IMG/VR virus record: IMGVR_UViG_3300020182_000086
Location: 1-37,001 of that record
Origin: a virus
Reading direction: 5' to 3' (one strand)
Length of the DNA: 37,001 nucleotides
The translations under genes and the position numbers were made by a program. A model generated the notes under the pieces. The model did not search any database. It worked only from the letters and a program-made list of their open reading frames with translations, and was not told the origin of the DNA. Every line of letters begins with the position of its first letter. Position 1 is the first letter of the stretch. This document shows, in pieces, positions 1-35,114 of the stretch.

Positions 1-3000
1 CCACCTGTTTTTGTAGTTGATGCTGTATTAAACCTACTTTTAATATCAGGTCTTTTACTAGCCATAGCTTTACTTTTACCAGCTGCAACATCTTGCTTAG
101 CTTCTAAGCTTAAATCTGTATCAGATCTTACGATTTCATTAGTTACTAACTTACCATATAAACTAGCAATACCTTTCAAAGCTTGAGCTTGTGGTGATCT
201 AGCATCAAACCCTTCAGCTTTCTTACCTTCAACAATACCAAATGTTTCTAGGAAATCAGCTTTACTAATTCCTTTGTTTAATTTAAACGGAGCAAGTCCA
301 GCTCCTTTGCCTAATCTAGCTTGTTTAGTATAAAAAGCATTAAGTAAACCTTTTGGCACGCCAGTAGACGTACCTAAGAGCTTCTCTGTTGCAGCTTCTA
401 TCACTGCCCCTTCTGGTAATATCTTTAATAATTTATCTGCGTTCTTATTGACAAATTGCTGAATAGCTGTAGCATCACCTTTTGATAGGTTTGCTGTAGC
501 TACTGTGAGCTTTTTAACTGGTATACCAATTTCAGCTGCAATAATTTCAGGAGCTAAGTCACCAAGTTTTTTAAACGTTAGATTTTTAGGATCGATGCCT
601 TTAATCTTCTCTTGTACTTGCTCTTTAATTTTAGTAATAGCTTCGTTAGAAATAAACGAGCTTGGCTTTATTTTTCTAGTAACAGGTTTTTCAGTAGCTT
701 CAGTTTCTACCTCTTCTGCCATAACGCCTCTAGCTTCTGTAACGTCACTAGTGAACTCTTCACCTAAAACCCTTTGAGAAGCTTCAATAGCTCTAGCTGG
801 TAAAAACTTATTTATATAAGCGGCTAATGGCACGCCTGATTCAGGTTTGTATTCTCTAATTAAATCAAATATTCCACGCTTACCTGTTTCAATTTCGTCT
901 GTTAAAAGTTGACGATCAAAATTAGGAGCGTCTCTTCTTTTCTCTACTATTCTATTTACTATGGGCTTAAATTGATCTATAATATCAAAAGCACCAGCTT
1001 CACCTTGAGCGTCATATATTTCTTGTACTTTAGTAGATGCTATAACGCCTGTATCTTTTTTACTTTCTTTAGTTACTACTTCTGTAATCTCAGCCTCTAT
1101 ATCAGTTGGAGTTTTTATGTCTACTTTAGCACCCTCGACAGCTGCTTTTTCAAGACCTTTAGAAAGACCCTTACCTTTTTGTACGCTTCTATTGTAGTCT
1201 CTAACAAAGTTTAATACATCTTTTCCAGTTTTAAACTTAACGTTTAAACCCATAGCGCTTAAAGCTCTACGTATAAAATCACCTATCTTAGTTGTAGCTT
1301 TTTCATTAAAAACAATGTCACCACTTTCTAATCCTTCACTAGCAAGAGTTAAAACCTCTTCCATAGTATCTGCTTTGGATATATCAGCATCTTCAACATA
1401 CTGATTAAATCTATTTAAAAACTTAGAGCTAGTAAATGTTATGTCTTTACTGTTTTTTAATTCTTCTAAAAGAGATGTACCCAAAGCTATTGCAGCTTCA
1501 GGTTTATTTTTAACAGTTTCAAACAAAACGGCATGACCAACCTCGTGTTGAGCAGTTGTCATAACATTGTCTTGAGCTGCAGATTCTTTATTTAGAATTA
1601 TAATTCTTTTGCCATCAGGCATTACTACAAATGTACCGTAGTCTTCAGAGCTTTTAGTATCAATGTTTCCACCTTGCTCTTTTAAAGTTTCTATAGCAGA
1701 AGCTACATCAGCTTCATTTTCAAAAGTTTCAAAACCAGTTCCAACTTGCTCAGCTATAACTTTAGCTCCTTTTTCTACCTTAGCAGTTTTGTCAGCTACT
1801 ATTATATCACTTAATTCTTTATCTATTTCACTAAGTCTTTCTGACTCTGTTTTTGTTAGACTAGAATTATCTACTTGCTTTATAGTGTTTTTTAGCTTTT
1901 TTTGCTCTATCATTAAATCAACTATTGCTGGTTGATTTTCTAAACTTATACCTAATGGTTTTAGTCTATTAACAGATCCTTGAACTTCTCTAGCTCTTAA
2001 TTTAACATCGTTAGCTTGATCTACAGTTATATCACCAACTTCAACTTTTTTATCCGCTTTAGCATCTATAGCGTTTAATGATCCAGGAATTTGAGATATT
2101 TTAACTTCAGCTTCAGACGTTGGTGTCTCTGGGTTAAAAGCTTCTATAACATTATTGGAATCAGATGTTTTTAACTCCTTGTTTATATTTAAGTTTGTAA
2201 TACCAGACTTAACAGCTTTAACTGCTTGAGCAGAGTTAATTGGAGCTCCGTAAGTTAAACCACCACCAACTCCTTGTATGAAAGAATCAGCTACGTTTTC
2301 AAATGGATCAACTCCATTTATCATATTTTGAGTAATAGTAGTAGCAACCTCTTCAACGCCCTCACCAACCATAGAAGCTGGTGCTCCAAACTTAGTTAAA
2401 GCAGATCTATACATATCTACAAGCCCCTGTCTAAATATCTTTACGCCTTCTTCTTTACCTTCTTTTATTAATATATCTTTATAGACTTTACCTATAGTAC
2501 CAGTTCCTATAGAGCTAAATACACTTTCAGCCCCTGCTAAACCTAAGCCTTTTATAATATTTTCTGCTTCAGATTGTCCTACATTTTTTTCTCTTTGTTC
2601 TTTTATTTCTGGACCAGCAAAAGCTATTGTACTACCAGTAGCTAGTTTACCTGTGCTAACAGCAGCACCTCCAATCATAATAGACATACTTACTGGTGCA
2701 CTTTCAGCTAAACCGCTAGCTAATTGCTTAAAACCATCTACATAATTACCCTCTTCGAAGTTTTTGTAGATACCTTGGTGATCATAGTTGGCTTTATTGT
2801 ATATGTCTTGTGATTCTTGAAGTTTAGCGCTTTCTGCTTCATAAAACTCTAACACAGGGTTTTCTAATCCAGTTTTTTCTTTAAATTTTTCAGAACTAGC
2901 TTCTATGTCTAACCCGGTGGCATTTGCTAACAAGTTTTGAGGTAAAGCAAATATATCATATATAGTTTCTGGAACAGAAGCTATCATTTCACCTAAAGTT

Positions 3001-3407
3001 GTACTTCCTTTTTTAAAGTCAATTAAAAGTTTTTCGCCAAAAGACATTGTAGCTATTTCTCTTTTTCTATCTAGCTCTTCATCTGTATCAAACTTATAAT
3101 ATATACCTTCTTTTTCATCTTCTTTTTTAACCTCTTCAACTTCTGGTGATACCGAAAAACCATCTTCCAATGTTAATTCCGTAGGCTCTGGTGCTGGTTG
3201 TGGTCCTACCGACGGAGCACTTGCACCCACTGCACCGTCTTTTGTCTTTACTTTACCAAGATCCACTTCCTCTAAAACCTCAGTTTCAACTACCTCTTCA
3301 GTAGCTGGCTGGTTAATTTTTTTCCACTCTATTACTTTAGCTTTAATCTCATCTACAGATAAACCTTGATCTTGTAGTGAAGCTACGTAAGTTTCTAATT
3401 CGTTCAT
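1..3407 (-). CDS. Very large virion-associated (polyvalent-type) protein with zinc-metallopeptidase motif, C-terminus beyond window
   Basis: I read this frame codon by codon. It is open from the ATG at 3407 to the window edge, with no stop in at least 1135 codons. A stop codon lies directly upstream of the ATG, so the start is fixed. The N-terminus (about 1-32) is a short helical segment followed by an acidic, proline-rich linker to about residue 90. Residues of about 215-400 hold weakly hydrophobic glycine/alanine-rich stretches of the kind seen in phage ejection proteins. HEVGH at 621-625 is a zincin metallopeptidase motif, and E683-E684 about 60 residues later could give the third zinc ligand. 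Long charged helices follow. Position at the end of the tail and ejection block suggests an internal virion protein injected with the DNA, of the large polyvalent kind. The exact role is inferred. Confidence 0.8.
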   Translation of the reverse strand, partial: MNELETYVASLQDQGLSVDEIKAKVIEWKKINQPATEEVVETEVLEEVDLGKVKTKDGAVGASAPSVGPQPAPEPTELTLEDGFSVSPEVEEVKKEDEKEGIYYKFDTDEELDRKREIATMSFGEKLLIDFKKGSTTLGEMIASVPETIYDIFALPQNLLANATGLDIEASSEKFKEKTGLENPVLEFYEAESAKLQESQDIYNKANYDHQGIYKNFEEGNYVDGFKQLASGLAESAPVSMSIMIGGAAVSTGKLATGSTIAFAGPEIKEQREKNVGQSEAENIIKGLGLAGAESVFSSIGTGTIGKVYKDILIKEGKEEGVKIFRQGLVDMYRSALTKFGAPASMVGEGVEEVATTITQNMINGVDPFENVADSFIQGVGGGLTYGAPINSAQAVKAVKSGITNLNINKELKTSDSNNVIEAFNPETPTSEAEVKISQIPGSLNAIDAKADKKVEVGDITVDQANDVKLRAREVQGSVNRLKPLGISLENQPAIVDLMIEQKKLKNTIKQVDNSSLTKTESERLSEIDKELSDIIVADKTAKVEKGAKVIAEQVGTGFETFENEADVASAIETLKEQGGNIDTKSSEDYGTFVVMPDGKRIIILNKESAAQDNVMTTAQHEVGHAVLFETVKNKPEAAIALGTSLLEELKNSKDITFTSSKFLNRFNQYVEDADISKADTMEEVLTLASEGLESGDIVFNEKATTKIGDFIRRALSAMGLNVKFKTGKDVLNFVRDYNRSVQKGKGLSKGLEKAAVEGAKVDIKTPTDIEAEITEVVTKESKKDTGVIASTKVQEIYDAQGEAGAFDIIDQFKPIVNRIVEKRRDAPNFDRQLLTDEIETGKRGIFDLIREYKPESGVPLAAYINKFLPARAIEASQRVLGEEFTSDVTEARGVMAEEVETEATEKPVTRKIKPSSFISNEAITKIKEQVQEKIKGIDPKNLTFKKLGDLAPEIIAAEIGIPVKKLTVATANLSKGDATAIQQFVNKNADKLLKILPEGAVIEAATEKLLGTSTGVPKGLLNAFYTKQARLGKGAGLAPFKLNKGISKADFLETFGIVEGKKAEGFDARSPQAQALKGIASLYGKLVTNEIVRSDTDLSLEAKQDVAAGKSKAMASKRPDIKSRFNTASTTKTG

Positions 3408-4523: not shown

Positions 4524-5189
4524 TTATCCTAACATTCCACCACCAATTGAAGCTAGTGATCCAAACATACCTGTAATAGCGCCTGTTTGATCTGCTTTTG
4601 CTTGAGCTTGAGATTGAGCTGCGCCCGTCATCTCTGCGTAAGTTCTATCTATAGCACCTTGTTCTCTACTTTCAGTAGCTCCAAAAACAAACTGTTTTCC
4701 AGCTGCTTCAGCCGATTGAACGCGTTGCTCTTCAGCCATTTTTTGCTGCTGAACATTTGCTTCTCCTTGAGCTCTTTTGTCTTCGTTACTTTTTTCTTGC
4801 ATCTCAATGCTAGCTGCAACACCTTTCTTAGACTGTAAAGCAGCTTGAGCTAATGCCGTAGCGCCACCAGCACCTCCACCTGTTGCTCTTACCGTGTCTA
4901 ATGTATTAGCTAAAGATATATCAGCCTCTTCAATTTTCATTTCAGCCGCTCCTGTTGCAACTGACAAGTTTGCAAATGGATTACTTATCATACCACTAAG
5001 ACTTGTTACGTCTTCATAAGGACTTATTACATCTTGTCTGTTTTCTTCTAATTTGTTTAATTTTCTTTGTAGACGAGCTTTTTCTCTTGCTGCTGCTTTT
5101 GCTGCTTTTTTAGCCGAGCTTGCGCCAAAAAGCCCTCCAGCTATGGATGCAACTCCACCTATAATGCCTGCCGTTACTATACCTGCCAT
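4524..5189 (-). CDS. Internal virion (DNA-ejection) protein, T7 gp14-like in architecture
   Basis: A 221-residue protein. It opens with a hydrophobic glycine-rich segment (about 3-24), followed at once by a basic alanine/lysine/arginine helix (25-50). A long glutamine/alanine-rich helical region follows (about 110-200), and it ends in a second glycine-rich hydrophobic tail. This layout is typical of small podovirus ejection proteins that form a channel in the host envelope. The sequence is too low in complexity for a firm family call. Its start overlaps the end of the upstream cupin gene by 13 bases, which indicates translational coupling. A membrane-acting role during genome delivery is inferred from composition and position. 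Confidence 0.7.
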   Translation of the reverse strand: MAGIVTAGIIGGVASIAGGLFGASSAKKAAKAAAREKARLQRKLNKLEENRQDVISPYEDVTSLSGMISNPFANLSVATGAAEMKIEEADISLANTLDTVRATGGGAGGATALAQAALQSKKGVAASIEMQEKSNEDKRAQGEANVQQQKMAEEQRVQSAEAAGKQFVFGATESREQGAIDRTYAEMTGAAQSQAQAKADQTGAITGMFGSLASIGGGMLG

Positions 5190-5638
5190 AATTTCTCTTT
5201 ATTTACATACTCTTCTATAGTAAAAGAATATAAGTTTTTTTCTATTTTATCTAAGTTTTGATCGTTAGATGGGTTTTTGTGTACGTTTATAAATACACAG
5301 TCTTCTATACATATTATAAGTCTTTTAGCACCTTTTATAGACTTCTCAAAACAAGGTGCTATATGTTCTACTGTCTCCCCGTCTGTTGTAACTTGTATTT
5401 TACCCGTCATTAAAAACCAAAAATGATCCGTATGATGCATAGCGCTTACAACAAATGTTCCAGCTTTCATCTTCATCTCTCTCATGTATAATTGATCTGA
5501 AAAGTTATGCTTTATAGGAAAGTCCTCATTATCTACAAGAGCTTCACCATCGCCGTATATAAAATCTTTATCATTGTTAGCTATTAAAACTTCTTGCAAT
5601 GTTTCTAGCTTTTTAGTAAAATTGCTAAGCTTATTCAT
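5177..5638 (-). CDS. Cupin-fold protein in the tail/ejection block
   Basis: A 153-residue protein with a single cupin-like beta barrel over about residues 55-122. The visible metal-site pattern is H68, H69 and H72 followed by a glycine turn at 79 (motif 1), and H120 in the segment VHKNP (motif 2). A run around 95-115 contains cysteines and the charged stretch KGAKR. Cupins bind a metal or a sugar and serve as enzymes or binding modules. Nothing here identifies the substrate. It lies between the 501-residue tail protein (one-base overlap at the start) and the ejection-type protein, so it is probably expressed late. It could be a minor virion component or an enzyme acting on the host surface. 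Confidence 0.7.
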   Translation of the reverse strand: MNKLSNFTKKLETLQEVLIANNDKDFIYGDGEALVDNEDFPIKHNFSDQLYMREMKMKAGTFVVSAMHHTDHFWFLMTGKIQVTTDGETVEHIAPCFEKSIKGAKRLIICIEDCVFINVHKNPSNDQNLDKIEKNLYSFTIEEYVNKEKLWQV

Positions 5639-7143
5639 TAATAGCCGTTGTTTTGAGTAAACTCAGAGCTAACTGCAAATAATTGCTTCTCAGCTCCAAC
5701 GTTTGTAACGGCATCAGTTAAGAAAGTTACTGTTGAAAAATAACCTTTAATACCAGCAACTTGCTCACCAGATATTACCTCACCATCTTCTGGATTACTA
5801 TAATTAACTAAGTTAGAAGCATAGCTATTTTCTTTTCTATTAAAACCAGCGTACTCTTTATTCAAAGCAGGTCTTATAGTTCCAAATGTAGCTAAATAAT
5901 CTTGTCTAACCACAGGTTGGCCATCAGCTGGATTAATAACATATTCACCCTCTAGATAACTATGTACTGATGTTGGTGCATATAAATCAAAGTTATTAGG
6001 TATTGTGGTTACATCTTGGTTTGTTATCCAGGAATTACCTGGTAAATCAAAATCTTGACCCGTGCCATCTGACGCGAATGAAGCAACTTTCCAGCCGTTA
6101 CTACCTTCATAAGAAACTGTTTTAAAAGTTTTTGAAACCGTAGGGCTTGGATTAAATACAAACGTTATAAGACTAGGTGTATCTACTCCGTAGAACTGAC
6201 CTCTATTAACTCCACTGTCGTGATGTCTATATAAACCTCCGTCTTGAACTGTGTAAAAGTTATTTCTTATACTAAACAATTGATCCGGACGGTAGCTAAA
6301 AAAGCTTGTCCATCCGCCAATAGAATCACTCCATGACAATGTGTTGTATGATGGATTTGGAATGTTTTGTTGAGTTGATACTATATACTTATTGTTGTAA
6401 ATATCATAACCACCTCTAACATAACCCTCTGCTCCTCCAGGATTATCTATAGCGTTTAACTGATCTCTAAAGTAATCTTTCATACCAGAAGCTGATATTT
6501 CAGTTATTCCGTTTTGACCTAACCTAAGTATTACATTATTATTTTTATCTGAAAAGAATTTATTAAAACCATAAACAGCAAAGCTTTCAGGGTTTCTACT
6601 TATTCCAAACCTACCAGCGTAAGGTTGTATAACCCCTATAACTAAATTAGTCGATGTTACACTACTAGTTCCTTCTGCTGAATAAATTGCATCTTTATCA
6701 ATTAAAGCTCTACTAACTTTTCTTTCTTGAAAAATAGTCAAGTTAGTATTTTCTGCGTAAAGCTTTTGAATAGAACCATCTGCTGGATCTGCACTTTTAG
6801 TTATGCTAGTTCCTGTTGAAAATACGTTTGTGTTGTTTATACCTGTTCTAGAATTAAATATTCCAGACCATATCAAAGAATTAAATCTTATAGACGAATT
6901 TGGTTCCTCTTCAACTAGGTACGCTTTAACTCCATAATCAACGTTAGTGTTGTTATATCCGCCTCGTATTCTAGCTTCTTCAATAGCCCAGTTATTAGAT
7001 TGCGATGTATCTGCAACCACTGGGTAACCTCCGTTTTCTTGAGGTATGCCAAATGAACCGTTCCAAACAGGTTGTTCCTGTGGTTGGATGGTTTTCTTTA
7101 ACACAAAGCTGTTAAAATATTTAACTTCTATTACTGCTCCCAT
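5638..7143 (-). CDS. Beta-rich tail protein, probably second part of the nozzle/muzzle assembly
   Basis: A 501-residue protein, beta-rich, with many serine, asparagine, glycine and tyrosine residues and no signal peptide or membrane helix. The segment around 265-350 (GGWTSFFSYRPD, a LYRH motif, then a YEGSNGW motif) resembles sections of nozzle or muzzle proteins of Bacteroidetes short-tailed phages as I remember them. It follows the 1389-residue nozzle-like gene by 39 bases. The two may form one tail-tip structure, split over two genes. The final residues run directly into the start of the cupin gene with a one-base overlap. Function is inferred from composition and location. Confidence 0.65.
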   Translation of the reverse strand: MGAVIEVKYFNSFVLKKTIQPQEQPVWNGSFGIPQENGGYPVVADTSQSNNWAIEEARIRGGYNNTNVDYGVKAYLVEEEPNSSIRFNSLIWSGIFNSRTGINNTNVFSTGTSITKSADPADGSIQKLYAENTNLTIFQERKVSRALIDKDAIYSAEGTSSVTSTNLVIGVIQPYAGRFGISRNPESFAVYGFNKFFSDKNNNVILRLGQNGITEISASGMKDYFRDQLNAIDNPGGAEGYVRGGYDIYNNKYIVSTQQNIPNPSYNTLSWSDSIGGWTSFFSYRPDQLFSIRNNFYTVQDGGLYRHHDSGVNRGQFYGVDTPSLITFVFNPSPTVSKTFKTVSYEGSNGWKVASFASDGTGQDFDLPGNSWITNQDVTTIPNNFDLYAPTSVHSYLEGEYVINPADGQPVVRQDYLATFGTIRPALNKEYAGFNRKENSYASNLVNYSNPEDGEVISGEQVAGIKGYFSTVTFLTDAVTNVGAEKQLFAVSSEFTQNNGY

Positions 7144-7182: not shown

Positions 7183-10100
7183 TTACAAAAGTTCCACTTC
7201 ATATCCTTGAAAGTTTGTTTGTTGGGTACCCAAAGTTCGTTGAGCTCCTAGCCAACCACTACTAGGTATGTTGTTGGTTTCTACTAAAGCTTCAAAATCG
7301 GCAGCCGCTAGTGACGGTGTGGCCGCGTTACTATAATAGTTACTCGATGGGCCGCTGCTGGAAGAATTTTGAACTATACCTATTGCGCCGCTATTAACTG
7401 TATCTGATAATAAAGCTGCGGATGAAGGGCTACCGTTTTCTTGAACTTCCTCGGTTATTTTATAATACCAACCTTCATTTGCGCCAAATTCATTTGCTTC
7501 TACTTTAAACATAATACCATAAACGTTGTAATATGACTGCGTGCCAACTTCAGTGGTTTGTGCATACACTTCTAAGCTTCTCCACTCCGTTACGCTACTT
7601 GTTGCTCTTTGTTCTATAATAATAGTACAGGTATCAGTCGATTGCCCTGGATCTGTAAGCTGCATAACTATAGTATACTTATCCACTGGTCGATTTTGAT
7701 TTTGATTAATATCAGGTAAATTTTGAAGAACTACTTCACTAACATAGTCTGGAGTACCTATTAAGGTTCCAAATCCATCTTGACCAACATCTAGTGTGAA
7801 TAATTGATTAGCAGCTACAGGATCACCACTTGAATTCACTTGAGATGTAATCTCCCAAACTAATTCTCTATTTCTCAACTCTTGATTTCCTGCTCCGTTT
7901 TTACCCCACTTTGTTACTATGTTTATTACATTTCTGTTTTTATAATAGACCCTTCCACAAGGTTCATCAATTCGATCTTGATACGCTGATATTGTTGGTG
8001 CAATGTTATTAGGGTTACCGATTTCTAAAAATGGAGTTGAAACTGTATCAACCACACTTACAAATTTAAAGGTAAAATTTATTAAATTAGGATCACTTCC
8101 AAAATATATATTATCCCAATAATCCTCAGTTACTTTAACGTTATAATAATTTGTAGTTGTTGTTTCAAAAAGCTGAAAGTAATTGGTAACATTTGCGTTT
8201 GATCCATCTCTTACAATAGGCATAGATAAGGTAAAATTACTAACCTCTTGCCCAAAAGTATCTAACAAAGTAAAATCGTCAGTTAATATGTTAGCTGAAA
8301 GATCGGGTTGCCAGTTAATTGTTTCGTCCCAGTCGTTGGTGTTAAAAGAGCTAAACGCTGCTCCTGCTCCTGTAGTGTTTAGTATTAAGTAGTTTAAGTC
8401 ACTAACTAATCCAGCTGTAGAACTTTCCCAAAATATATCTAGCTCAGACTCTACTGGTTCTGTTTCATACACAGCTAAGTATTGAATACCTGGATCTACT
8501 ATAGTGCCGTAGTTTGGAGATGGAAATCCTTGAGCAAAAGTTAAAACAGCATCTGTTTTTAAAGTGACAGGCGAGTCAAAAGTTAATACGCCAATATCAG
8601 AGGTAGCTCCTGGAGTCCATAATATAACAATAGAATCTGCAGGTAGTCCTCCACCAAAAACAACCATTGAAGGATTAATATCACCTACAACGTTTTTTAA
8701 ATTAACAGTAGAACTACTTGAAACATCAGCTTCTACCAATGCGCTTGCTGTGTCAAAGTTAGTTGTAGCTGTTTGTCCTATTTTATCATCAGTGCTAATT
8801 CTAGCTACTAAAGGATTTGATAGAAATGAGTAAAACTGAGGGAAATAATCCGGGCGTGGTGGATCGTTGGGATCGTAATTAAACAAATCGTTTAATGTAG
8901 ATATCGTTGATACTGTATCGGATTCTCTTCCTGGAAAATATTGATCGTTTGATAACCCAACATCCTGAGGTATGGTTCCAATATAAGTAATCTCTGTGGA
9001 AGTGTTTTCCACTCTACCAAATAACCTTACTGAACTTCTAAATTGTTTTTGATCTGGTCCTACTTCGTTTAAATCTCTAGGTACTTTGTTTATGTTGTCA
9101 TTAATTAAAACAGCATGAGATGTATTACCTATTTCCAATGTAGTACTCTCTGGGTATGCTGCCATAATTCCAGGTAAATAAACGTTGTAATATTCTTGCT
9201 CTGTTTGTTTAACTACAACCTTGTAACTATACCAACCTAAAGGATTGTAGCTAAGGCTTGTTGGATCTCCATTGTATAACCCAGGCCAACCAGTTGTAGT
9301 ATTTGGATTAGCTGGACCAATAGGATCGTTAAATAAAACTTTAAGCGAATCTCCTGGCCATTCATTCTGCTCTACAGCTGTTGTTTGATATGGTGAATAT
9401 ATAGTTGATCCTATAAACTCATCACCATCTTCTTTTGATAAAATTGAATCTTTAGATACTATAACAGAAGACTGTCTTCCAAACCTATCAGATAAAACAA
9501 TACCAACCTGGTAGTTTCTATTCTGCTTAACAGTGTGGTTTGGGTTTTCTACAGTGCTCGTGTACTGCGTATCATCCGCAGCGGCTTCAAATATTAACTC
9601 TTCAAATGGTACAATAGTTACTGGTCCACTTACTGTAATTTCAGTTAAAATATCATCTAAGTCAGTAACAACTACTGGGTTTCCACCTGATGATAAATTA
9701 GTAATTATACTACCAACTAAAATAGTTCCAGTATTACTTGAAATCTGTATCGTGGTAGAATCAGTTTGAGAATCTGCAATGGCTGTGCCATTTTGTAAAT
9801 TAAATGGTTTTTTAGCTCCAACATTTACACTGTAGTTTATTGTGTCTGGAGGAGTGTGTTTGTCTTGGAAGTTTCCATAAACAAGTCTGTTGCTAATTAT
9901 CTCTTGAGATAAAGCTTTTACAGGTATTACATCAAAAACTCTTATTAAGTCTTTTGAAGGTAATGTTTTAAACGGCTTCTTTGACTCATATTGATAAGAA
10001 AAGTAATCATCAACAAATTCTATGTCTTCTACATCTATTGTATCAACTACTTTTACAGCCAAAGCATCAGATTCTTTGTAAAGAATATCTATTTTAGTTA

Positions 10101-11352
10101 TCTTCAAACCTTCGCTGATGTCTGATCCTGTGTAACCAGTAGGCAAAGGAACTCTTAGTTCTATATCATCTACTTTGTTTTCCATAAAAGAAACAATAGT
10201 ACTTCTATAAGTATTACTTTGATCATCTTTTTCAGGTATTCCTTCTTTGTTTACAAATAAAAAGTAACCATCTTGTTTTGGTATGAAAGCTATTTGAGTA
10301 AATGGAGCAAATATAGAATACTCACCATCTTCAAACTGGTATCTATAGCTAAAACGTATAAATCTGTCTTCTAAGTAATCTGGGTCTCCTGCAAACAAGT
10401 GTTTATAATAGGGATTTGCGTTAAACACTATTTCTGTGCCGCTAGGTAAAGGAGGCATTGAACCTGAAGTAGATACTTCGTGTGGATCTACACTAGTATC
10501 GTAGTTACTTACTGAAAGCCCTGTTGAAAACATTTCTCCAGAGTTAGAGTTTATATAAGAAATTGTTGAGTTTGAATCGTAAGCGTTAGAACCTGTAAAC
10601 TGAATATCCCCTTTCACTGTTGAAATTGGAATATTAGCAGTTCCACCAGCATAAGTACCTATAACATCTGCAGATCCGCCATTTGGCATAAACTTACTGC
10701 TAACGTCTTTCATAGTTGATTCGTAAGGAACCGCCCAAGTTTCAGAACCTGTTTCCGTAGATTTTTTCCATGTTTGGATTGGATCGTATGGGTTGTATTT
10801 TGCAACTGATATTTGATCTTCGGATATGTAGTGTGTTGGATTCGCTAGTCTACTAGGATTTGCTTTAGTAGTATCTATTTTTCTAGGTTGATTTCTATTG
10901 TCAGTCCAGAATAATAAACCTTCTAAGATGTTAATACCTGTAATTGGAAAGTTTTTTGAAAAGTTCAACCATGCACCTTCAACTAGTAAAGTTGTGTTGC
11001 TAGTGTCATCAAGCAAAGTATTATATGAGAATATAAAGTTATTCGCTGTTGGCTTGTAAGCATTTGGGTTTAAGTCTGTTGACTTAGGGTTGTCTGTTAG
11101 GAATAAATATACAGTGCTGTTAAATTCGTCGGTTAAAAAACCAATACAAATTAAATCATCAACACCTGTTAAAGCTTCAAAATCTTTAACTATGACATTA
11201 CCCAATACGTTCTCTAAAGAACCTACATTAGCGCCTTCAGATTTACTAACCTGAATATTTAAAGCATTTCTGTATTCTCCATTTGGGAGCAACCTAGCAT
11301 CTAAGTCTTGGTTTAATTTATTCTTTATAAAAGTATTAGTAACTTTAGCCAT
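7183..11352 (-). CDS. Large tail nozzle/stabilisation-type protein
   Basis: A 1389-residue protein, the longest in the tail block. The N-terminus reads MAKVTNTFIKNKLNQD and then has an ARLLPNGEYRNALNI motif. This start is familiar from nozzle or stabilisation proteins at the tip of short-tailed phages, which are beta-propeller-like. The rest is beta-rich, with repeated aspartate/asparagine turns and several Ig-like stretches, and no membrane segment. It follows two ring-type connector genes (7-base gap to the nearer one), matching the usual order portal, capsid, adaptor rings, nozzle. It probably forms the distal tail tube through which DNA leaves. Its length is well above the roughly 800 residues of T7 nozzle protein. 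Confidence 0.7.
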   Translation of the reverse strand: MAKVTNTFIKNKLNQDLDARLLPNGEYRNALNIQVSKSEGANVGSLENVLGNVIVKDFEALTGVDDLICIGFLTDEFNSTVYLFLTDNPKSTDLNPNAYKPTANNFIFSYNTLLDDTSNTTLLVEGAWLNFSKNFPITGINILEGLLFWTDNRNQPRKIDTTKANPSRLANPTHYISEDQISVAKYNPYDPIQTWKKSTETGSETWAVPYESTMKDVSSKFMPNGGSADVIGTYAGGTANIPISTVKGDIQFTGSNAYDSNSTISYINSNSGEMFSTGLSVSNYDTSVDPHEVSTSGSMPPLPSGTEIVFNANPYYKHLFAGDPDYLEDRFIRFSYRYQFEDGEYSIFAPFTQIAFIPKQDGYFLFVNKEGIPEKDDQSNTYRSTIVSFMENKVDDIELRVPLPTGYTGSDISEGLKITKIDILYKESDALAVKVVDTIDVEDIEFVDDYFSYQYESKKPFKTLPSKDLIRVFDVIPVKALSQEIISNRLVYGNFQDKHTPPDTINYSVNVGAKKPFNLQNGTAIADSQTDSTTIQISSNTGTILVGSIITNLSSGGNPVVVTDLDDILTEITVSGPVTIVPFEELIFEAAADDTQYTSTVENPNHTVKQNRNYQVGIVLSDRFGRQSSVIVSKDSILSKEDGDEFIGSTIYSPYQTTAVEQNEWPGDSLKVLFNDPIGPANPNTTTGWPGLYNGDPTSLSYNPLGWYSYKVVVKQTEQEYYNVYLPGIMAAYPESTTLEIGNTSHAVLINDNINKVPRDLNEVGPDQKQFRSSVRLFGRVENTSTEITYIGTIPQDVGLSNDQYFPGRESDTVSTISTLNDLFNYDPNDPPRPDYFPQFYSFLSNPLVARISTDDKIGQTATTNFDTASALVEADVSSSSTVNLKNVVGDINPSMVVFGGGLPADSIVILWTPGATSDIGVLTFDSPVTLKTDAVLTFAQGFPSPNYGTIVDPGIQYLAVYETEPVESELDIFWESSTAGLVSDLNYLILNTTGAGAAFSSFNTNDWDETINWQPDLSANILTDDFTLLDTFGQEVSNFTLSMPIVRDGSNANVTNYFQLFETTTTNYYNVKVTEDYWDNIYFGSDPNLINFTFKFVSVVDTVSTPFLEIGNPNNIAPTISAYQDRIDEPCGRVYYKNRNVINIVTKWGKNGAGNQELRNRELVWEITSQVNSSGDPVAANQLFTLDVGQDGFGTLIGTPDYVSEVVLQNLPDINQNQNRPVDKYTIVMQLTDPGQSTDTCTIIIEQRATSSVTEWRSLEVYAQTTEVGTQSYYNVYGIMFKVEANEFGANEGWYYKITEEVQENGSPSSAALLSDTVNSGAIGIVQNSSSSGPSSNYYSNAATPSLAAADFEALVETNNIPSSGWLGAQRTLGTQQTNFQGYEVELL

Positions 11353-24239: not shown

Positions 24240-24548
24240 TTAAGATCGTTTATAAGCTTCAGCTTCCCAAGGTAGGTTTTTAGCACCTTCTTCCATATCA
24301 GCCCGTGAATACTTTTTACCTTTCCAATATACATTGTCATCGTCGTAATCTAAATCACCTCTATCCATTTGTTCTAAATGAATTTTTTCGTGAGCAACTA
24401 CGTCTTCTACTTGATCTGGATGTAAATCTTTATTTATGGTTATAGAACCATTATTATTAGCTTTTCCCATAACACCATCTTCCATATCTACTCGATATAT
24501 TGGAGTGTTGTCCATGTGGAAAGGTGGATTGTTTAGTTTAAAAGCCAT
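24240..24548 (-). CDS. Mini metallopeptidase-like protein (HEKIH)
   Basis: A 102-residue protein. It contains HEKIH at 53-57 within VVAHEKIHLEQMDRGDL, the HExxH zinc-binding and catalytic motif of zincins. PWEAEAY at 93-99 supplies glutamates (E95, E97) that could be the third ligand in a gluzincin arrangement. The remaining sequence is too short for a full protease, so it resembles a minimal zincin. It is not exported by any visible signal. Zinc binding or a scaffold role without peptide cleavage is also possible. It is packed within a run of small genes between groES and the terminase region. Confidence 0.65.
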   Translation of the reverse strand: MAFKLNNPPFHMDNTPIYRVDMEDGVMGKANNNGSITINKDLHPDQVEDVVAHEKIHLEQMDRGDLDYDDDNVYWKGKKYSRADMEEGAKNLPWEAEAYKRS

Positions 24549-24550
24549 AT

Positions 24551-24703
24551 TTATTTTTTATAAGGAAATATTTTATTTAGTATTTCTTTTCTTTTATTAC
24601 AACCGCATCCACCTGGTATCTTATCAGCTAATTTTTTAATACCAGTTGCTTTTGTAAACTTTTCTATTGAATCTCCTAGTCCTTGCGATATATTATTGTC
24701 CAT
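24551..24703 (-). CDS. Very small protein with CGCNKRK motif
   Basis: I place the start at the ATG at 24703, giving 50 residues. The longer reading from 24775 would overlap the upstream gene by 83 bases and adds an unlikely hydrophobic start. The protein has the pattern GLGDSIEKFTKATGIKKL, followed by CGCNKRKEILNKIFPYKK. This resembles tiny conserved phage proteins of unknown role. The CxC pair and following basic cluster hint at metal or nucleic-acid binding. It overlaps the preceding gene by 11 bases. Confidence 0.6.
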   Translation of the reverse strand: MDNNISQGLGDSIEKFTKATGIKKLADKIPGGCGCNKRKEILNKIFPYKK

Positions 24704-25184
24704 ACTTATTAAAGTAGTTGCTTTCATCTTTATCAAAAAAACTACCTGATTTAGAATTAAACTCTGCTTTAGCATTGTAATCTTTGAAGCCTTTGTCAGT
24801 TGTCTCTTTTAGCTTTTTTGAAACTTTTTTAGTTTCACCTTTGAACTCAGCTTCTTTGTCAGCTTTTGTTTTACCGCCTCTTGGCGTAAAAGCCGCAGCT
24901 ATATTATCTTGAAGTCTTTGAAAGTGTGGAGCTGTAGAAACGTAAGCGTAATCTAAAGGGCTATCTACTTGAGTTTTTTTTTTATAAGTATAAGTGTCGT
25001 CTCCTGGAAACTCTTGCTCGTCTTCAGACTCGTAGTCATAATCTCCCTGGTTTATTTGAGGTAGTAAAGCTGAGTTTTTATACATCTCTTTATCATCTTT
25101 TTTAGCTTGTCTTTCTAGCTGCTTGAGAGTAAATGTTTTTACAGGGTTTTTTTTAGAAAATTTTTGTTGAAATGGTGAGCTCAT
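24693..25184 (-). CDS. Charged protein of unknown function
   Basis: A 163-residue hydrophilic protein with many lysine, aspartate and glutamate residues (for example YDYESEDEQEFPGDD). A middle segment (DYAYVSTAPHFQRLQDNIAAAF) is the only region likely to fold. It has no signal or membrane segment. Its start overlaps the stop of the 65-residue gene by one base, and its stop overlaps the 50-residue gene by 11 bases. No family is recognised. Confidence 0.55.
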   Translation of the reverse strand: MSSPFQQKFSKKNPVKTFTLKQLERQAKKDDKEMYKNSALLPQINQGDYDYESEDEQEFPGDDTYTYKKKTQVDSPLDYAYVSTAPHFQRLQDNIAAAFTPRGGKTKADKEAEFKGETKKVSKKLKETTDKGFKDYNAKAEFNSKSGSFFDKDESNYFNKYGQ

Positions 25185-25863: not shown

Positions 25864-26310
25864 TTATCTATCTTTATCTTTGTTTACATTTTTTATAGAA
25901 GTTATAAGAACTTTATCAGTGTACGTCTTACCCTTCATTATACTGTTTCTGTGATTGCTAGTTGGTAGATCATCTTGACCTAGTATAATTCTATACATAT
26001 GCTTGATTAAATGCTTACATTTAAACGATGTTTTGTATATATGATACTTTTGAGTTGTTCTATTTCTTTTTCTCCAAACAACTATCCAACCTTCTTTCAG
26101 CAAACGGTTCCAGCGGCGGTTATCCCAACTATAGGAATAACTACCAGCTTCGAAATCTTTTTTTGTAAACATATCAATACAATCTAAGTATATCAATAAC
26201 TCTAGATCAGCATCGTTAAGGTCGTTGTTTCTGCAAGCCCATTTACGTATTATACGATAATGTTTAAACAGATTCATATTTTTTATGTCATCTGCGTCTA
26301 GCCTTTTCAT
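25864..26310 (-). CDS. Winged-helix (MarR-like) candidate DNA-binding protein
   Basis: A 148-residue basic protein. The first 115 residues read like a winged-helix domain: helix LFKHYRIIRKWACR, helix LNDADLELLIYLDCI, a recognition-type segment with DNRRWNRLLKEGWIVVW, a wing with RKRNRTTQKYHIY, then a final helix HLIKHMYRIILGQDDLP. This layout resembles MarR-type regulators and conserved proteins of Bacteroidetes phages. Its start overlaps the groES stop in an ATGA junction. A regulator of late transcription is a reasonable guess, perhaps acting at the repeated palindromes described below, but there is no direct evidence. Confidence 0.6.
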   Translation of the reverse strand: MKRLDADDIKNMNLFKHYRIIRKWACRNNDLNDADLELLIYLDCIDMFTKKDFEAGSYSYSWDNRRWNRLLKEGWIVVWRKRNRTTQKYHIYKTSFKCKHLIKHMYRIILGQDDLPTSNHRNSIMKGKTYTDKVLITSIKNVNKDKDR

Positions 26311-26567
26311 AAAACAACAACTACATCTTGCGCTTTAATAACGTGATATGTTTTTCTGTGTATTTCTATCTTATGCCCAGCGTGTCTATCAAAGAAGATT
26401 TTATCACCTTCTTTTAATCCTTCAACCTGTTCACCAGCTGATAATACATTAGCTTCAGTGTAACGAATGTCTTCACGTTGATTTTCTGCAAGAAGTAAAC
26501 CACCTTTTGTTTCGGTGGTTCCTTCTTTTATTTTTTCTATTATTAAGTTTCTACCTATCGCTTTCAT
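26307..26567 (-). CDS. groES: Co-chaperonin GroES
   Basis: An 86-residue protein from the ATG at 26567. A TTG three bases further upstream is a weaker alternative start. Typical GroES features are present. The N-terminal strand is GRNLIIEKI. A mobile loop at about 15-33 has KGGLLLAEN, whose hydrophobic triplet contacts GroEL. The roof and turn segment is LKEGDKIFFDRHAGHKIEI, and the closing strand is HVIKAQDVVVVL. It caps the phage GroEL ring during protein folding. Its start overlaps the end of groEL by 17 bases. In bacterial operons the order is normally groES then groEL, so this arrangement is reversed. The last bases overlap the next gene (ATGA). Confidence 0.9.
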   Translation of the reverse strand: MKAIGRNLIIEKIKEGTTETKGGLLLAENQREDIRYTEANVLSAGEQVEGLKEGDKIFFDRHAGHKIEIHRKTYHVIKAQDVVVVL

Positions 26568-28104
26568 CAATTCTTAAATTATTGATTACACAATCAGTTG
26601 ATAATATAGTTGTCGCTACTGAAGCTGCATTTCGAAGAGCGCTTTTGGTAACTAGCAGAGGGTCGATAATACCTGACTTAATCATATTTACCATTTTTCC
26701 TGTAACCACGTTTAGACCTCTTCCTTTAGCTTTAGGTAAATCCGCATCTGTTATACCAGCGTTTTCTAGTATTGTCTTAAATGGTGCTCTAATTGCTTCT
26801 AGGAGCAGTTTTTCACCATCTGACTTTGGTACTATACTTGTTGCGGCGTTTAACAGCGCGATACCTCCTCCAGACACTATACCTTCTTTTATAGCAGCTT
26901 TTGTAGCGCAGATAGCATCTTCTGCTCTATCTGTTTTTTCTTTTAATTCAATATCAGAATTAGCACCTACTTTCACAATTGCTACTCTAGCAGAAAGCAT
27001 ACCTAATCTTTTTTCGAGCTTAATTATCTCATAAGCCTGCGTAGCTTCTAGTAAATCTCTTTTTAGCTTGTCAATTGTAGCTAAAATCATTGGTCCTGAT
27101 TCTTCAAATTGAAGTATAGTCTCAGCATGAGTTGTAACGGCTTTTAAACACGTTCCTAGGTGCTCTGGTTGGATTAAATCCATATCGTCACCTAAATCCT
27201 CATTTATAATCGTAGCATTTGTTAGAAGCGCTAAATCCTGTAACACCTCCTGTTTGTTGACGCCTTGAGTAGGACCGTTTATAACGTTAACTCTTATATT
27301 GCCTTTATTTTTGTTCATAGCTAAAGCAGATAAAACACCTTGTTCTAAGTCGCCGATAATCAGCAAAGGCTTATTGTTTTTTATTACATACTCTAGCACA
27401 GATTGAATCTGTCTTATTGTATCAACTGGTGATTCTATTAACAACACTAACGCATTGTCTAGTTCAGCTGATTTATTTTGAACATTAGTTATAAAATGAG
27501 AGTTCGTAAGACCTTTGTCATATTGAACGCCATCTACAACCTCAACTTCTGTTTTTCCATCTTGTGACGTTTCCATCATTACAATCCCCGTGTTATCTAC
27601 AGCTCTAAAAGCATCGGCTATAACTTTACCTAGCTTTGGATCGTTATTTGTAGATATTGTGGCAATGTTGTCAATCATGTCCCCTTCAACTGGTAACGAA
27701 ACACTCTCTAGGTATTTTATAACCTTATCAACACCGCTACTAATACCTTCTTTTAATTCTCTTGAGTTTGTTTTATCTGAAACCTTATAAGCTTCAGTTA
27801 ATATAGCGTGAGCTAAGACCGTAGCGGTGGTTGTACCATCACCTGCTTCTCTCACTGTTTTTCTTGCTGCTTCTTTTAAAAGCGTAGCTCCCATGTTTTC
27901 CACTGGGTCTCGCAAGATTATTGAATCTGCTACTGTTACACCATCTTTTGTAATGATTGGTTTTCCAGTATGATCTTCTAGCATCACACATTTGCCGCTA
28001 GCTCCTAAAGTGGAGCTAACAGCTTTTGTGAGCTTTTCTATTCCTTTAAATACGTTAACTCGGGCTTCTTCACCGAAGTTAAGGTTTTTGACAATTGCGT
28101 CCAT
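26551..28104 (-). CDS. groEL: Chaperonin GroEL
   Basis: A 517-residue group I chaperonin with full ATPase residues: TKDG with D54, GDGTTTAT at 88-95, and RAEDA with D396, followed by EGIVSGGGIALL. The apical domain keeps the KPLLIIGDLEQGVLSAL core, but bacterial GYLSPYFI is replaced by KGLTNSHFI, and the usual GFGDRRK loop is changed. The C-terminal GGM tail of bacterial GroEL is absent: the protein ends at RIDESDR, about 30 residues short of the E. coli form. It probably folds phage capsid or fibre proteins with the phage GroES. The gene opens after a 32-base A/T-rich leader. Confidence 0.95.
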   Translation of the reverse strand: MDAIVKNLNFGEEARVNVFKGIEKLTKAVSSTLGASGKCVMLEDHTGKPIITKDGVTVADSIILRDPVENMGATLLKEAARKTVREAGDGTTTATVLAHAILTEAYKVSDKTNSRELKEGISSGVDKVIKYLESVSLPVEGDMIDNIATISTNNDPKLGKVIADAFRAVDNTGIVMMETSQDGKTEVEVVDGVQYDKGLTNSHFITNVQNKSAELDNALVLLIESPVDTIRQIQSVLEYVIKNNKPLLIIGDLEQGVLSALAMNKNKGNIRVNVINGPTQGVNKQEVLQDLALLTNATIINEDLGDDMDLIQPEHLGTCLKAVTTHAETILQFEESGPMILATIDKLKRDLLEATQAYEIIKLEKRLGMLSARVAIVKVGANSDIELKEKTDRAEDAICATKAAIKEGIVSGGGIALLNAATSIVPKSDGEKLLLEAIRAPFKTILENAGITDADLPKAKGRGLNVVTGKMVNMIKSGIIDPLLVTKSALRNAASVATTILSTDCVINNLRIDESDR

Positions 28105-28826: not shown

Positions 28827-31800
28827 TTATTTATTTTCTAATTTTTGTATTCTTGTTTCTAATTGTTCTATTCTTGTTACAGCTTCTTGAAGAGCTGCTG
28901 TCAATAAAGGTACTATTTTAGCTTGATCTATTCCTTGATAAGATGGTTTATTATTTTCATCAACCGCATCTTTTTCACCTGATATAGCTTCTGGTATTAC
29001 TTCAGCCACTTCGTGAGCCATAAAGCCATCTACTTTATAATCGCTTGGTCCTTCTTTCCAACTAAACCTATTAGGTTTTAATTCTTTTAATCTACTTACT
29101 GCGTCGTTTATAGGTGTAATATTTTCTTTAAGTCTATAATCCGAACTCGTATTGTATTGAACTCCGTATTGGTTCATGCTTATATAACCCCTAACAGCAT
29201 TATTAGATCTTATAAATTCAATCATACGACCTGACGCACCGGGGAAAGCAGTTTCAGATTTTATTCTCATCAGCTGAGAAGATGATGTTGAGGTAGTTCC
29301 TTTTATGTAAAGCTTAGAAGAAGGGGAAGTTTCCCCAATCCCAACGTAGCCTGTGCTGTTAATACGTAATCTTTCACTGTTTTGAGTTCTAAATGTTATA
29401 TTCGCTGCTTGAGTGGCGTTAAAGTTGAAAACCCCTGTTCCTCTATGAATTAATTCAGAAGAAGTATTAGCACCGAGACTATTTCTAATTATTCTAAGAC
29501 CATAATCGCTGTAAGTTGAATCTCCCACAAGATCAATATAAGCGAAACCGTTTGTAGTCCTGCCGTTACCAATTTGAATAAAGTTTGCTCCGTTATTGGC
29601 GTAACCAACATCTAATCCGTTACCTGTTATTCTAGTGCTGCCTGCTACCTCCAGTTTTTCGTTAGGACTAGTTGTTCCAATACCAACATTACCTGAGCCA
29701 TTAATAACCATTTTTTGAGTAGCATTAGTCCAAAACTCCATGTTGTTGGTGGCCATTTCATATCTAACCCTACCTTTAGTTTGAACTGAGCCGTTACCAA
29801 ACCAAAGCTCAGCTTCATTAGCTCCTGTTATTGTAACAAAACTCCTATTGCTGGCTGTGCTCTCGAATATAGCTGATGTTCCACTCGCAGGAGACCAAGT
29901 GCGAAGCGTTCCGTTTGCCACGTGAAGTTTTGCTTGAGGACTAGTCGTTCCGATACCTACGTTGCCGCCTAAAGTTCTAATCGCCAAATTTCCATTAGCT
30001 CCAAATATACTAGTATCGTAGCCTACGCCATCCCAATCACCTAGTTGTAACAAACCCGAATCACCTTTAGCCCAAGGAACTCCTTCTACTAAATAGCCAT
30101 CACCTCCAACAGAGTCAATCTCACCTGCGACTTCCAGCTTAGAGCCAGGACTAGTCGTTCCAATACCTACTCTATTGTTTGGCTCATCTACGTAAACAGT
30201 GTCTGAAACTAGTGTGTTTCCATCACCAATCCATATTCTACCGGTTGGTAGGTTAGGCACATCGTTTGATCTAAGTAAAGCAGCTACAACAATGTTACCA
30301 TCAGCTGAAGTACTTACCCTACCTACTTGACCTACGTTTTGAATAAGATTCGTAGACCCAGTTGGTTTTGTCAAAGTAAGTCCACCACCTGATTTTACGT
30401 ATATAGTATCATTTTCGTTTGGAGTGCTATTGTCTATTGGTGATGTTATTAAATTTCTTAATTTACCAACAACAGTTGCTGTACCTTCCCCGTTAGGTGC
30501 TAGATCTTGATCTAATAAACCAAAACAAGGCATTTTATTATCACCTAAATTATTAGTTGCCGTAGAGTCAGCATCTGCTAAATCAACATAAAGCCTAGGT
30601 GAAGCACCAACACTTCCATATATGTAAACTGGATCTCCTTTTACTAAATTAATACCACCGTTTGCTGAAGATATATTTTTTACTTGTATATCTATAGCTT
30701 CTGATGATTCAGAAGCTGTTGGTAGTACTATTGATTTTAAGTTTATTGCCTCTACGTGACCAGTGGTGTTTGTTGTAACTGAGTCAACAGCTGTTACGGT
30801 ATCACCTGCAGCTGGAGTTATAGTAGAAGTATTGTCTGTTCTTGAAGTTAAATCATGGTTAACCGTTACAATTGGACCTGTAGAGTTTACGGTCGTTATA
30901 TAGGTTCCACCCTCTACATCTGTTACATCTCCTTGTGGTATAGTCGGGAAGGTTTGTAAATTTCCAGCACCATCAACGTATTCAACAGAAGAGCCGTTCA
31001 TTGTGATATCAACAGAGGGATTCACAGTGGCTACGCCACCTATATTTGCGGTAAAGGCATTTCCAGCGTGTGTAGTAGCTACTGAAGTTACTGTACCTTG
31101 AAACTGATCTGTAGAGTTTATAGTTAACTCATTTAAAACTGTGTCGTACAATGTTGTAACATTTGTACCACCAATAAAGCTAATTGTATCTCCGCTTAAC
31201 ACAGATTCGCTACCTGAATCTCCAGCTACAGTCCACGAATATGTTCCAGGTATCGAAGCTACAGTAGCCCATGTATTAGATTTAGTTAAATACCTTTCAC
31301 CAGTAACAGCGTTACCATCTAGTGCTGTTAAATCAACTTCACCGATATTTACATCACCTGTTGCGCTTGAGTTTATATTTCCATAAGCTACATACACTCC
31401 TGTGTTGTTGTTACTAAATGTTTCTACTATATTAGTAGGTATTGTTGGTAGTGTAAAAGTTGTGAGTTCTTGACCTGTAACATGACCTGAAGAGTTAACA
31501 CCTACATTAGATGAAAGAGCCGTAAAAGTTCCGCCATGCGTTAAAGTGGTTGAAGGAGTTGTGTTAGTTTGAGCCTGAGAATCGTGTGTTACTGATATAG
31601 TTGTATTTCCAGCTTGGTTTGCTGTGAATGTGCCGGTTCCACCTAAAACTCCAGTTCCTTGAACCGTTAAAGTTCCATCTCCTACAGTTGGTATAGCTGG
31701 AAATGTTTGAAGATCACCTTGACCATCTACGTATTGACTTGCAGTACCTGCCCATGTAAAGTCTAAGTCAGGTGTAGTTGTTGGATTAGTAACAGCTACA

Positions 31801-33492: not shown

Positions 33493-34209
33493 TTATGCGT
33501 CTTTAACAAATCTGATAAATAAACCCCAACTGTTCGCATCGGAAAACCCAAGAGGTCCTAAATCACCTTGGGGTGTAATTTGCAACCCCCATCCAATAGT
33601 GGAGATTGAAGCTATATCTGTCCAATATCCCTCAGCTCGTTGAGGTAAACTAAAAAGAATACCCCCTTGTGATGACGATGCAACTGATGTATAGCCATAC
33701 CCTTGAGAGTTAAAACCGCTATCACCTAACTCAGTTGTGTTGGTTAATAAAGATTGATCCCAATTGCCAGGGCTTGCACCGTATCTATTTTTATTTCCAT
33801 TAGGAGTAGGGGATGGAAAGCATGGTGCGGTTTCTAAAGTATTAAAATCACTAGGTGTTGGCAACCTAAAGCCAACTGGTGGTTTCACTAAGTTTTTAGC
33901 AAAATAATTGTAAATCAATCCATAACTAGCGTTATTAGCGTCAAAATCCCAATAGCAAGCAGCTGGGGTTTGGTTGATCCAAGCTGCTCTCCATTCAACT
34001 CCATTGGTTGAGATAGGTATATTACCACCTGCAATTAACTCTGTTTCATTAGAGTTTGTGTCTGTCCAAATTAGATTACATATTTCTACTTGTCCAGAGG
34101 GTGTTGATGGAGGCCAAACAAGTTCAGATCCATTGTATATTTTCTGTACATCCATGCTATTAAGCTGAATGTTTGTTGGAGTTACGCCGTTTATTTTAAA
34201 ATCCCCCAT
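33493..34209 (-). CDS. FISUMP/C-type-lectin-like adhesin
   Basis: A 238-residue protein. A short N-terminal module (INGVTPTNIQLNSMDVQKIY, then NGSELVWP) resembles mounting modules of phage adhesins. The rest follows the FISUMP pattern of Bacteroidetes and Fibrobacter: SYGLIYNYFAKN at about 95-106, GFRLPTPSDFNTLE at 113-126, and a final GLFIRFVKD. The fold is related to C-type lectins, which present a variable ligand-binding face. It sits between the collagen-like protein (one-base overlap) and the long fibre, so it is probably part of the receptor-binding apparatus. Confidence 0.75.
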   Translation of the reverse strand: MGDFKINGVTPTNIQLNSMDVQKIYNGSELVWPPSTPSGQVEICNLIWTDTNSNETELIAGGNIPISTNGVEWRAAWINQTPAACYWDFDANNASYGLIYNYFAKNLVKPPVGFRLPTPSDFNTLETAPCFPSPTPNGNKNRYGASPGNWDQSLLTNTTELGDSGFNSQGYGYTSVASSSQGGILFSLPQRAEGYWTDIASISTIGWGLQITPQGDLGPLGFSDANSWGLFIRFVKDA

Positions 34210-35114
34210 TACCCCACTATTACAGTTAGCCAGTTCTGGTTAGAGCCAAACCCAGCGTCATACTGAGCCTGTGTCAATGTTACAATCTGTGTTATCTTAG
34301 GCACGGATGTCCAAATATCTTCGTTATTTTTAACTACATCTGGAGCCGAAACAGTGATGTCTCCTGTTGTATCTGATAAAACTATGTTAGTACCTGCAGT
34401 AACTGAGCTTACACCTCCAGGTTCACCAGTTAATCCTTGTATACCTTGTTGTCCTTGTGGACCTGTAGCTCCAGGAGCTCCGTCTGTACCATTCGTTCCA
34501 TCAACACCATCAACACCATCAGCTCCAGCTGGACCGGTAGCGCCTGTTGCACCATCTGTCCCATTTGTACCATTGGTTCCGTTTACTCCTGCAATACCTT
34601 GTATTCCTTCAGGTCCTCTTAAAGGTCCGATGTTCAACCAAGTGTTTCCTACAGTCCACACGTAACCATCTCCAGCAGTAGCGCCACCACCTGTTTGATC
34701 TATAATCCATAAATCACCAACTGTGTTACCAGTCGCGGGTAAATCAGCTACAGTAGGTTTAGTTCCTTGTATTTCTATAGACGTTCCATCCGCACCCGCT
34801 GGACCTTGAGCACCATCTTGCCCGTTAGCACCATCTGCTCCATTAGCACCAGGTGCTCCATCCGCGCCATCTGCTCCGTTTGTACCGTTTGTTCCATTTG
34901 TACCATTAGTACCGTTTGCTCCAGGAGCTCCATCTTGCCCTGCTGGACCTGGTACGCCTTGTGGAATTTCAGCCGCTATCAAAGAAGTTATATTACTAAC
35001 TTTAAAATTCTTAGTTTTAGGTAATTTATTTGTGTTAGGATCTGGTATCGATGTACCAACTAGTAAGTCACTAGACTTAGGTGTACCTATTGGGTATATG
35101 TTTATTTTAGCCAT
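34209..35114 (-). CDS. Collagen-like tail fibre protein
   Basis: A 301-residue protein. The N-terminus MAKINIYPIGTPKSSDLLVG resembles the neighbouring fibres. Two Gly-X-Y stretches occupy about 55-111 and 167-234, rich in GTN, GAD and GAP triplets, which should form a triple-helical rod. Between them is a small domain (about 112-165: IQGTKPTVADLPATGN, then VGDLWIIDQTG and GYVWTVGNTWLNIGPL) common between collagen segments in phage fibres. The end is a short beta region. It is likely a trimeric spacer that displays the next adhesin. Confidence 0.85.
   Translation of the reverse strand: MAKINIYPIGTPKSSDLLVGTSIPDPNTNKLPKTKNFKVSNITSLIAAEIPQGVPGPAGQDGAPGANGTNGTNGTNGTNGADGADGAPGANGADGANGQDGAQGPAGADGTSIEIQGTKPTVADLPATGNTVGDLWIIDQTGGGATAGDGYVWTVGNTWLNIGPLRGPEGIQGIAGVNGTNGTNGTDGATGATGPAGADGVDGVDGTNGTDGAPGATGPQGQQGIQGLTGEPGGVSSVTAGTNIVLSDTTGDITVSAPDVVKNNEDIWTSVPKITQIVTLTQAQYDAGFGSNQNWLTVIVG
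34413..34616. repeat. Gly-X-Y coding repeat, second collagen segment
   Basis: Short 9-base units encode GTN, GAT, GVD and related triplets (residues 167-234 of the collagen-like protein). The DNA repeats are imperfect and could change in number by slippage, altering rod length. Confidence 0.75.
34782..34952. repeat. Gly-X-Y coding repeat, first collagen segment
   Basis: This tract encodes residues 55-111 of the collagen-like protein. It includes four near-identical GTN triplets in a row, followed by GAD and GAP units, a slippage-prone tract. Confidence 0.75.

Follow-up and report, generated by a model that had tools for sequence, protein, structure and literature searches.

A giant putative virion polyprotein of a metagenomic virus combines a zincin-like domain with repeated linkers that co-vary with it

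Results

The locus and its surroundings

The window, which is the whole stretch of DNA analyzed here, makes up an entire IMG/VR record (37,001 bases), so that its left flank can be read only in relatives. On the minus strand, an ATG at 3407 opens a frame that runs to base 3 without a stop and then off the contig end, in agreement with the initial annotation, which had claimed at least 1135 uninterrupted codons. The MNEL.. start of the encoded protein is common to its relatives, of which L003, L006, L008, L016, L020 and others are complete. The following features were located:

3..3407, minus strand: 5' part (1135 codons) of the gene for a putative giant virion polyprotein, truncated where the contig ends
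1851..3407, minus strand: N-terminal module of variable sequence (residues 1-519) that is exchanged among relatives and has stretches of hydrophobic/small residues
1098..1850, minus strand: zincin-like metallopeptidase domain (residues 520-770; AlphaFold2 pLDDT 85, pTM 0.82)
1533..1547, minus strand: HEVGH (residues 621-625), two zinc-binding His and the catalytic Glu, from sequence and alignment
1356..1358, minus strand: E684, the third zinc ligand, invariant and located on the second helix, from alignments and model
1056..1070, minus strand: site 0, KESKK (residues 780-784), predicted cleavage linker at the zincin/sigma-like junction, from motif comparison
54..1055, minus strand: sigma-factor-region-2-like segment (residues 785-1118), from weak but convergent signs (all-alpha model, pLDDT 72)
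51..65, minus strand: site A, MASKR (residues 1115-1119), predicted cleavage linker, from motif comparison
4524..5189, minus strand: neighbouring gene whose product weakly resembles T7 internal virion protein gp14 (PF24072, E=0.012; the curated cut-off is not reached), in support of an ejection block

The C-terminus and further domains had been expected to lie outside the window. Judged from intact close-clade relatives (2,521-2,991 aa), about 1,400-1,850 residues are missing, and the window ends 16 codons after site A and 16 codons into a variable cassette. From these comparisons, the complete protein appears to be a chain of separate proteins, about 2,500-3,000 residues in all, joined by short repeated linkers.

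The surrounding block encodes terminase, portal and capsid proteins matching PHROG families, together with a crassvirus muzzle domain protein (PF25729, E=2e-10). The nearest named portals were those of MW202828 (50%), Maribacter phage Panino (44%), the Flavobacterium elemo phages (41%) and Cellulophaga phages. The analysis supported the view that the gene closes the structural block and encodes a multi-domain protein; it lies next to the gene for the weakly gp14-like protein, and its positional equivalent in phi18:3 is annotated as structural. The contig that holds one relative was binned with a Cryomorphaceae MAG, a weak hint of a Flavobacteriia host.

Several other genes of the window, all on the minus strand, were also recorded. 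The proteins of 5638-7143 and 7183-11352 match positions 920-1205 and 3-182 of the 1474 positions of phrog_14478, and in phi38:1 the match to the former falls inside the single gene gp97; the muzzle appears to be split into two genes in the window. GroEL (26551-28104; PF00118, 3e-57) and GroES (26307-26570; PF00166, 1e-13) are present, and both are also annotated in the elemo phages, Panino and MW202828. The 102-aa protein of 24240-24548 carries HEKIH with weak M78/DUF6782 similarity and is presumably the first zincin of the initial annotation. A 1549-aa tail-fibre-like protein (28827-33476) has many repeated segments and a C-terminal Peptidase_S74 chaperone domain, and a 301-aa protein with collagen-like G-x-y repeats (34209-35114) adjoins the fibre genes.

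Terminal giants of Pervagoviridae, Pachyviridae and Elemovirus occupy the same position, are very large and are annotated as structural: gp101 of phi38:1, gp123 of the Cellulophaga phage phi18:3 (annotated from MS/MS) and the 3,667-aa QMP89368.1 of elemo. The phi38:1 and phi18:3 giants have no HExxH, whereas the elemo giant has one HEIFH; none of the three has the repeated linker. Profiles of the zincin and of the C-terminal domain gave no match to the giants of phi38:1, phi18:3, elemo, Panino or MW202828. Since none of the positional equivalents was homologous by profile, it is genomic position that would place the window protein in the virion; and its presumed injection is argued from position and analogy only, as no sequence homology to it was detectable in the MS-verified equivalents. 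The giant of MW202828 (L101, MW202828.1 741-12320) is 3,859 aa long, contains two HEFGH motifs and is annotated as a reticulocyte binding/rhoptry protein.

The zincin-like domain

HEVGH was confirmed at residues 621-625. It is the only HExxH in the 1135-aa protein, in which about 0.0008 would be expected from composition. The third ligand had been placed at E683 or E684. E684 was invariant in all 68 of the non-redundant relatives selected for HExxH, while position 683, which is E in 69%, was discarded. In alignment A1, whose 53 rows include variants without the first His, E622, H625 and E684 were likewise invariant. The AlphaFold2 model has N-terminal helices (2-35 and 46-58 of A1), a three-stranded sheet (62-64, 72-76 and 82-87), the HExxH helix (99-113) and then the helix with the third-ligand Glu (159-176). 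The zinc site combines an invariant third ligand with a confidently predicted fold. The topology of the model is zincin-like, and its order of helices and strands is that described for the MPTases of polyvalent proteins in the available text of Iyer et al. 2017 (PMC5512222).

Foldseek searches of the PDB with the zincin model gave weak matches, among which one zincin was noticed (E=0.31); matches to glyoxalases were discarded as short strand matches. Against viral models, the best match had E=1.6e-3, probability 1.0 and TMq about 0.5, and further rows had probabilities of 0.98-1.0. Moderate matches to phage giants were obtained, and several weaker rows were named 'large polyvalent protein'. 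The motif varies in the family: L058 has HEKAGH, an HExxxH form, and L021, L054 and L074 have EE[IL]FH in place of HExxH and thus lack the first zinc-binding His. These EExxH zincins may, from their sequence, be inactive.

Relatives and module order

Two scans for relatives yielded 95 loci and 73 non-redundant giants; across the whole family, intact giants are 2,100-3,370 aa long. The order in the window clade is a variable N-terminus, the zincin, the sigma-factor-region-2-like segment, a variable cassette, a HAD phosphatase-like module and finally a large C-terminal domain. Upstream of the zincin, identity to relatives is lost in many loci. The HAD module has a weak DNA-3'-phosphatase match (TIGR01664, E=0.015). 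In L006 (10001-17746), a kinase (AAA_33/Zeta-like; PF13671, 1e-14) is inserted within this module, an arrangement that resembles polynucleotide kinase/phosphatase. Several unrelated enzymatic or nucleic-acid modules are therefore present in one polypeptide, namely the zincin, the HAD module, the kinase of L006 and the sigma-like segment. L018 was considered as a case of separately encoded modules, and this was dropped because its breaks look like frameshifts in one record.

Pfam, PHROGs and NCBIfam gave nothing above cut-off on P0001. No Pfam LPD-type domain exceeded its cut-off in P0001, P0002 or P0003, and LPD14 in L006 (E=0.004) was below it. Pfam and NCBIfam gave no RNA polymerase match in P0001, P0002 or P0006, and no T7-like RNA polymerase domain of the N4 type was found in them. 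P0001 and P0002 had no tblastn match in named phages.

The segment between sites 0 and A

The conserved stretch that separates site 0 from site A is 335 aa long. Its sole PDB profile match was RpoS (E=2.3). Alignment by hhalign with four E. coli sigmas gave E=0.001, probability 21 and 66 collinear columns, compared with about 0.5 for controls (0.48 for the reversed one). Among the best 50 fold matches, 39 were RNA polymerase holoenzyme entries, with the chain letters usual for sigma and E values of at least 0.7. Pfam PF04542 did not match the segment or the window. Taken as three weak independent signs, the profile, alignment and fold matches suggest that the segment is, on balance, sigma70-region-2-like.

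A repeated linker at module junctions

In the window clade the same short linker, [K/M][A/E/F]S[K/R]-X, recurs from one module junction to the next. Its forms are AKESKK|DTG at site 0, MASKR at site A, MASKR before HAD at site B and AKASKR just before the C-terminal domain at site C. In the wider family, site C carries the related forms KFSKT, KFSKS, KFSNA, KASKE and RASKK. Per 1000 aa, the linker occurred 0.88 times in the giants, as against 0.28 times after shuffling of their sequences and 0.11 times in the remaining ORFs of these contigs. Elsewhere in the window, a linker-like motif is confined to a 163-aa protein (24693-25184, minus strand) that starts MSSPFQQKFSKKNP; L018 has a similar start, MSSPFQKSFSEKSP.

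The residue X differs between proteins and agrees within one. It is L or I in L011, L013 and L019, G in L021, K in L024 and in L041 and L051, and R in most proteins. Sites A and B were identical in 16/16 proteins (0.60 expected); agreement was 0.85 between A and C (0.41 expected) and 0.74 between B and C (0.32 expected), each with p<=2e-4 by permutation across proteins, a procedure that ignores relatedness. Since the relatives are not independent, a safer count is about five separate concerted switches of X. The codons used differ among the sites of one protein (CTA/TTA/CTT; GGT/GGA/GGG; serine AGY or TCN), and recent gene conversion was therefore rejected as the cause of the agreement.

Co-variation of X with the zincin

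For 40 giants whose C-termini could be aligned, X at site C was set against module-by-module sequence distances. With the C-terminal domain controlled, X correlated with the zincin (partial Mantel r=0.54, p=0.0002, in a class of tests that can be too liberal), whereas with the zincin controlled there was no correlation with the C-terminal domain (r=-0.13). X thus tracked the zincin, about 1,000 residues away, and not the domains touching the site. When the HAD, N-terminal and post-zincin segments were added in a multiple regression, the zincin alone was significant. With alignment-free distances and the cassette added, the zincin led by far (p=0.0004), with the post-zincin segment at p=0.044. 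The correlation persisted without the EEIFH proteins, among non-R proteins, and after thinning the zincins to <70% or <50% identity. On the zincin tree 16 changes of X were needed, against 25 on the C-terminal tree.

Near-identical C-termini with different zincins carry different X. L016 and L021 have C-termini that are 98% identical and zincins that are 20% identical, and their X is R and G, respectively; in L054 and L056, a natural zincin exchange of the same kind, X changes too. Conversely, L021 and L054 share the unusual EEIFH zincin, their C-termini are 32% apart, and both have G at several sites. Two of the three EExxH zincins show the cleanest site switch. A counterexample is L025/L030, whose zincins are 71% identical, yet whose sites are KASKR and KFSKT. 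Matched pairs of near-identical C-termini gave a non-significant Fisher test (p=0.47): no more than four pairs, too few to be informative, had kept the zincin, and in two of these four the X change was conservative.

Discussion

The initial annotation had suggested that the protein might process itself. This gained strong indirect support of an evolutionary kind, in that repeated sites lie between the modules and co-vary with the encoded zincin. Judging from the sequences compared here, the zincin is likely to be the maturation protease of its own virion polyprotein, with the linkers as its predicted cleavage sites. The zincin, in the first half of the polyprotein, would cut at the [K/M][A/E/F]S[K/R]-X linkers, either in cis or between copies; the scissile bond is perhaps K|X, X being the residue that changes with the protease. 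In the window clade the products would be an N-terminal fragment containing the zincin, then a sigma-like protein of about 335 aa, the product of the variable cassette, a HAD phosphatase (fused to a kinase in L006, as in polynucleotide kinase/phosphatase) and a large C-terminal ejection-type domain. Carried in the particle, these products would come into play as infection begins. We infer the cutting itself, its timing (in the particle or at entry) and the functions of the products.

MPTases have been proposed to process polyvalent proteins, and autoprocessing was predicted from P1 DdrB, which is cut to 76 kDa before packaging; the options listed in the available text of Iyer et al. 2017 (PMC5512222) are that such zincins act inside the head, once injected, or against host proteins. 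The polyvalent proteins covered there are, like the giants, multi-domain phage proteins with an HExxH helix followed by a Glu helix and with unrelated modules shuffled around the zincin, and an HExxxH variant occurs in them as in L058. That text names no cut sites, whereas the giants have a repeated linker that co-varies with the protease, and their modules include the sigma-like segment and the HAD/kinase pair. P1 DdrB is also a phage protein with a zincin (HELGH at 872), but it is 996 aa long with the zincin near its C-terminus, and DdrB and DarA contained no linker motif beyond one chance-like match. The N4 virion RNA polymerase (Schitoviridae) is an ejected virion protein, as the giants would be, with about 3,500 residues and, like them, an HExxH domain (PMC12633501). 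It has an RNA polymerase where the giants have the sigma-like segment, and its related zincin is carried in a protein packaged uncut, according to the available text of PMC5512222. Crassvirus cargo proteins (phi-crAss001 gp45-gp50, PMC10172136) are comparable in size and in the fate proposed for the giants, being very large, stored in the virion and ejected, and the muzzle domain PF25729 and the portal, capsid and terminase families of PHROG are common to crassviruses and the window. For this cargo, PMC10172136 describes neither a zincin nor cleavage. The motif is absent from DdrB, and N4 vRNAP enters the particle uncut, so that processing is not necessarily a general property. These two proteins, the weak PDB match of the zincin, the L025/L030 pair and the EExxH zincins count against self-processing, as do the non-significant matched-pair test, the disregard of relatedness in the permutations and the possibly too liberal Mantel tests.

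The linkers could instead be recombination or hinge sequences for module shuffling that the zincin does not cut. The surrounding modules are indeed swapped between relatives, and one motif per junction would aid shuffling. However, the likeness of the sites within one protein is not kept by shared DNA, as their differing codons indicate, and a pure recombination linker does not predict that X follows the zincin and not the modules touching the site. We regard this explanation as unlikely. Cutting by another protease, from the host or a second phage enzyme, is rather less probable still. The zincin would then have a structural, packaging or host-directed role; the N4 MPTase region is needed for encapsidation though the protein is packaged uncut (available text of PMC5512222), and the EExxH zincins of some relatives may be inactive, but if a different enzyme read the sites, no co-variation with the zincin would be expected once the other modules are controlled for.

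Very improbable, in our view, is packaging and ejection at full length, as for N4 vRNAP, with the zincin attacking host proteins after entry. Conflict systems do include zincin effectors, and the available text of PMC5512222 counts host targeting among its options, but this reading would leave the repeated linkers and their co-variation with the protease unexplained.

Autoprocessing by such zincins was thus already predicted in 2017, without cut sites in the available text; what appears to be new, from sequence comparison, is the predicted sites that co-vary with the protease. In a literature search that covered few subscription journals, we found no report of cleavage sites of such zincins, of sites co-varying with the protease, or of a virion-delivered sigma factor.

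The zincin is the commonest domain of phage and plasmid polyvalent proteins, and self-processing is the leading role proposed for it. The predicted cut sites can be read from sequence and suggest a protease-site code with R, L/I, G, K, E and T/S types. This makes the self-processing idea testable and offers a route to predicting the mature products of giant ejection proteins that only metagenomes have revealed. Tentatively, and with somewhat more doubt than confidence, we propose that the particles of a Bacteroidota phage family contain a polyprotein that cleaves itself, with protease and cut sites evolving together as matched pairs that can be exchanged. Its products would include a sigma-like factor delivered by the virion and a phosphatase for DNA ends, accompanied in some cases by a kinase, which would set up the earliest minutes of infection. 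If real, such a sigma-like product would give phages one more means of initiating transcription.
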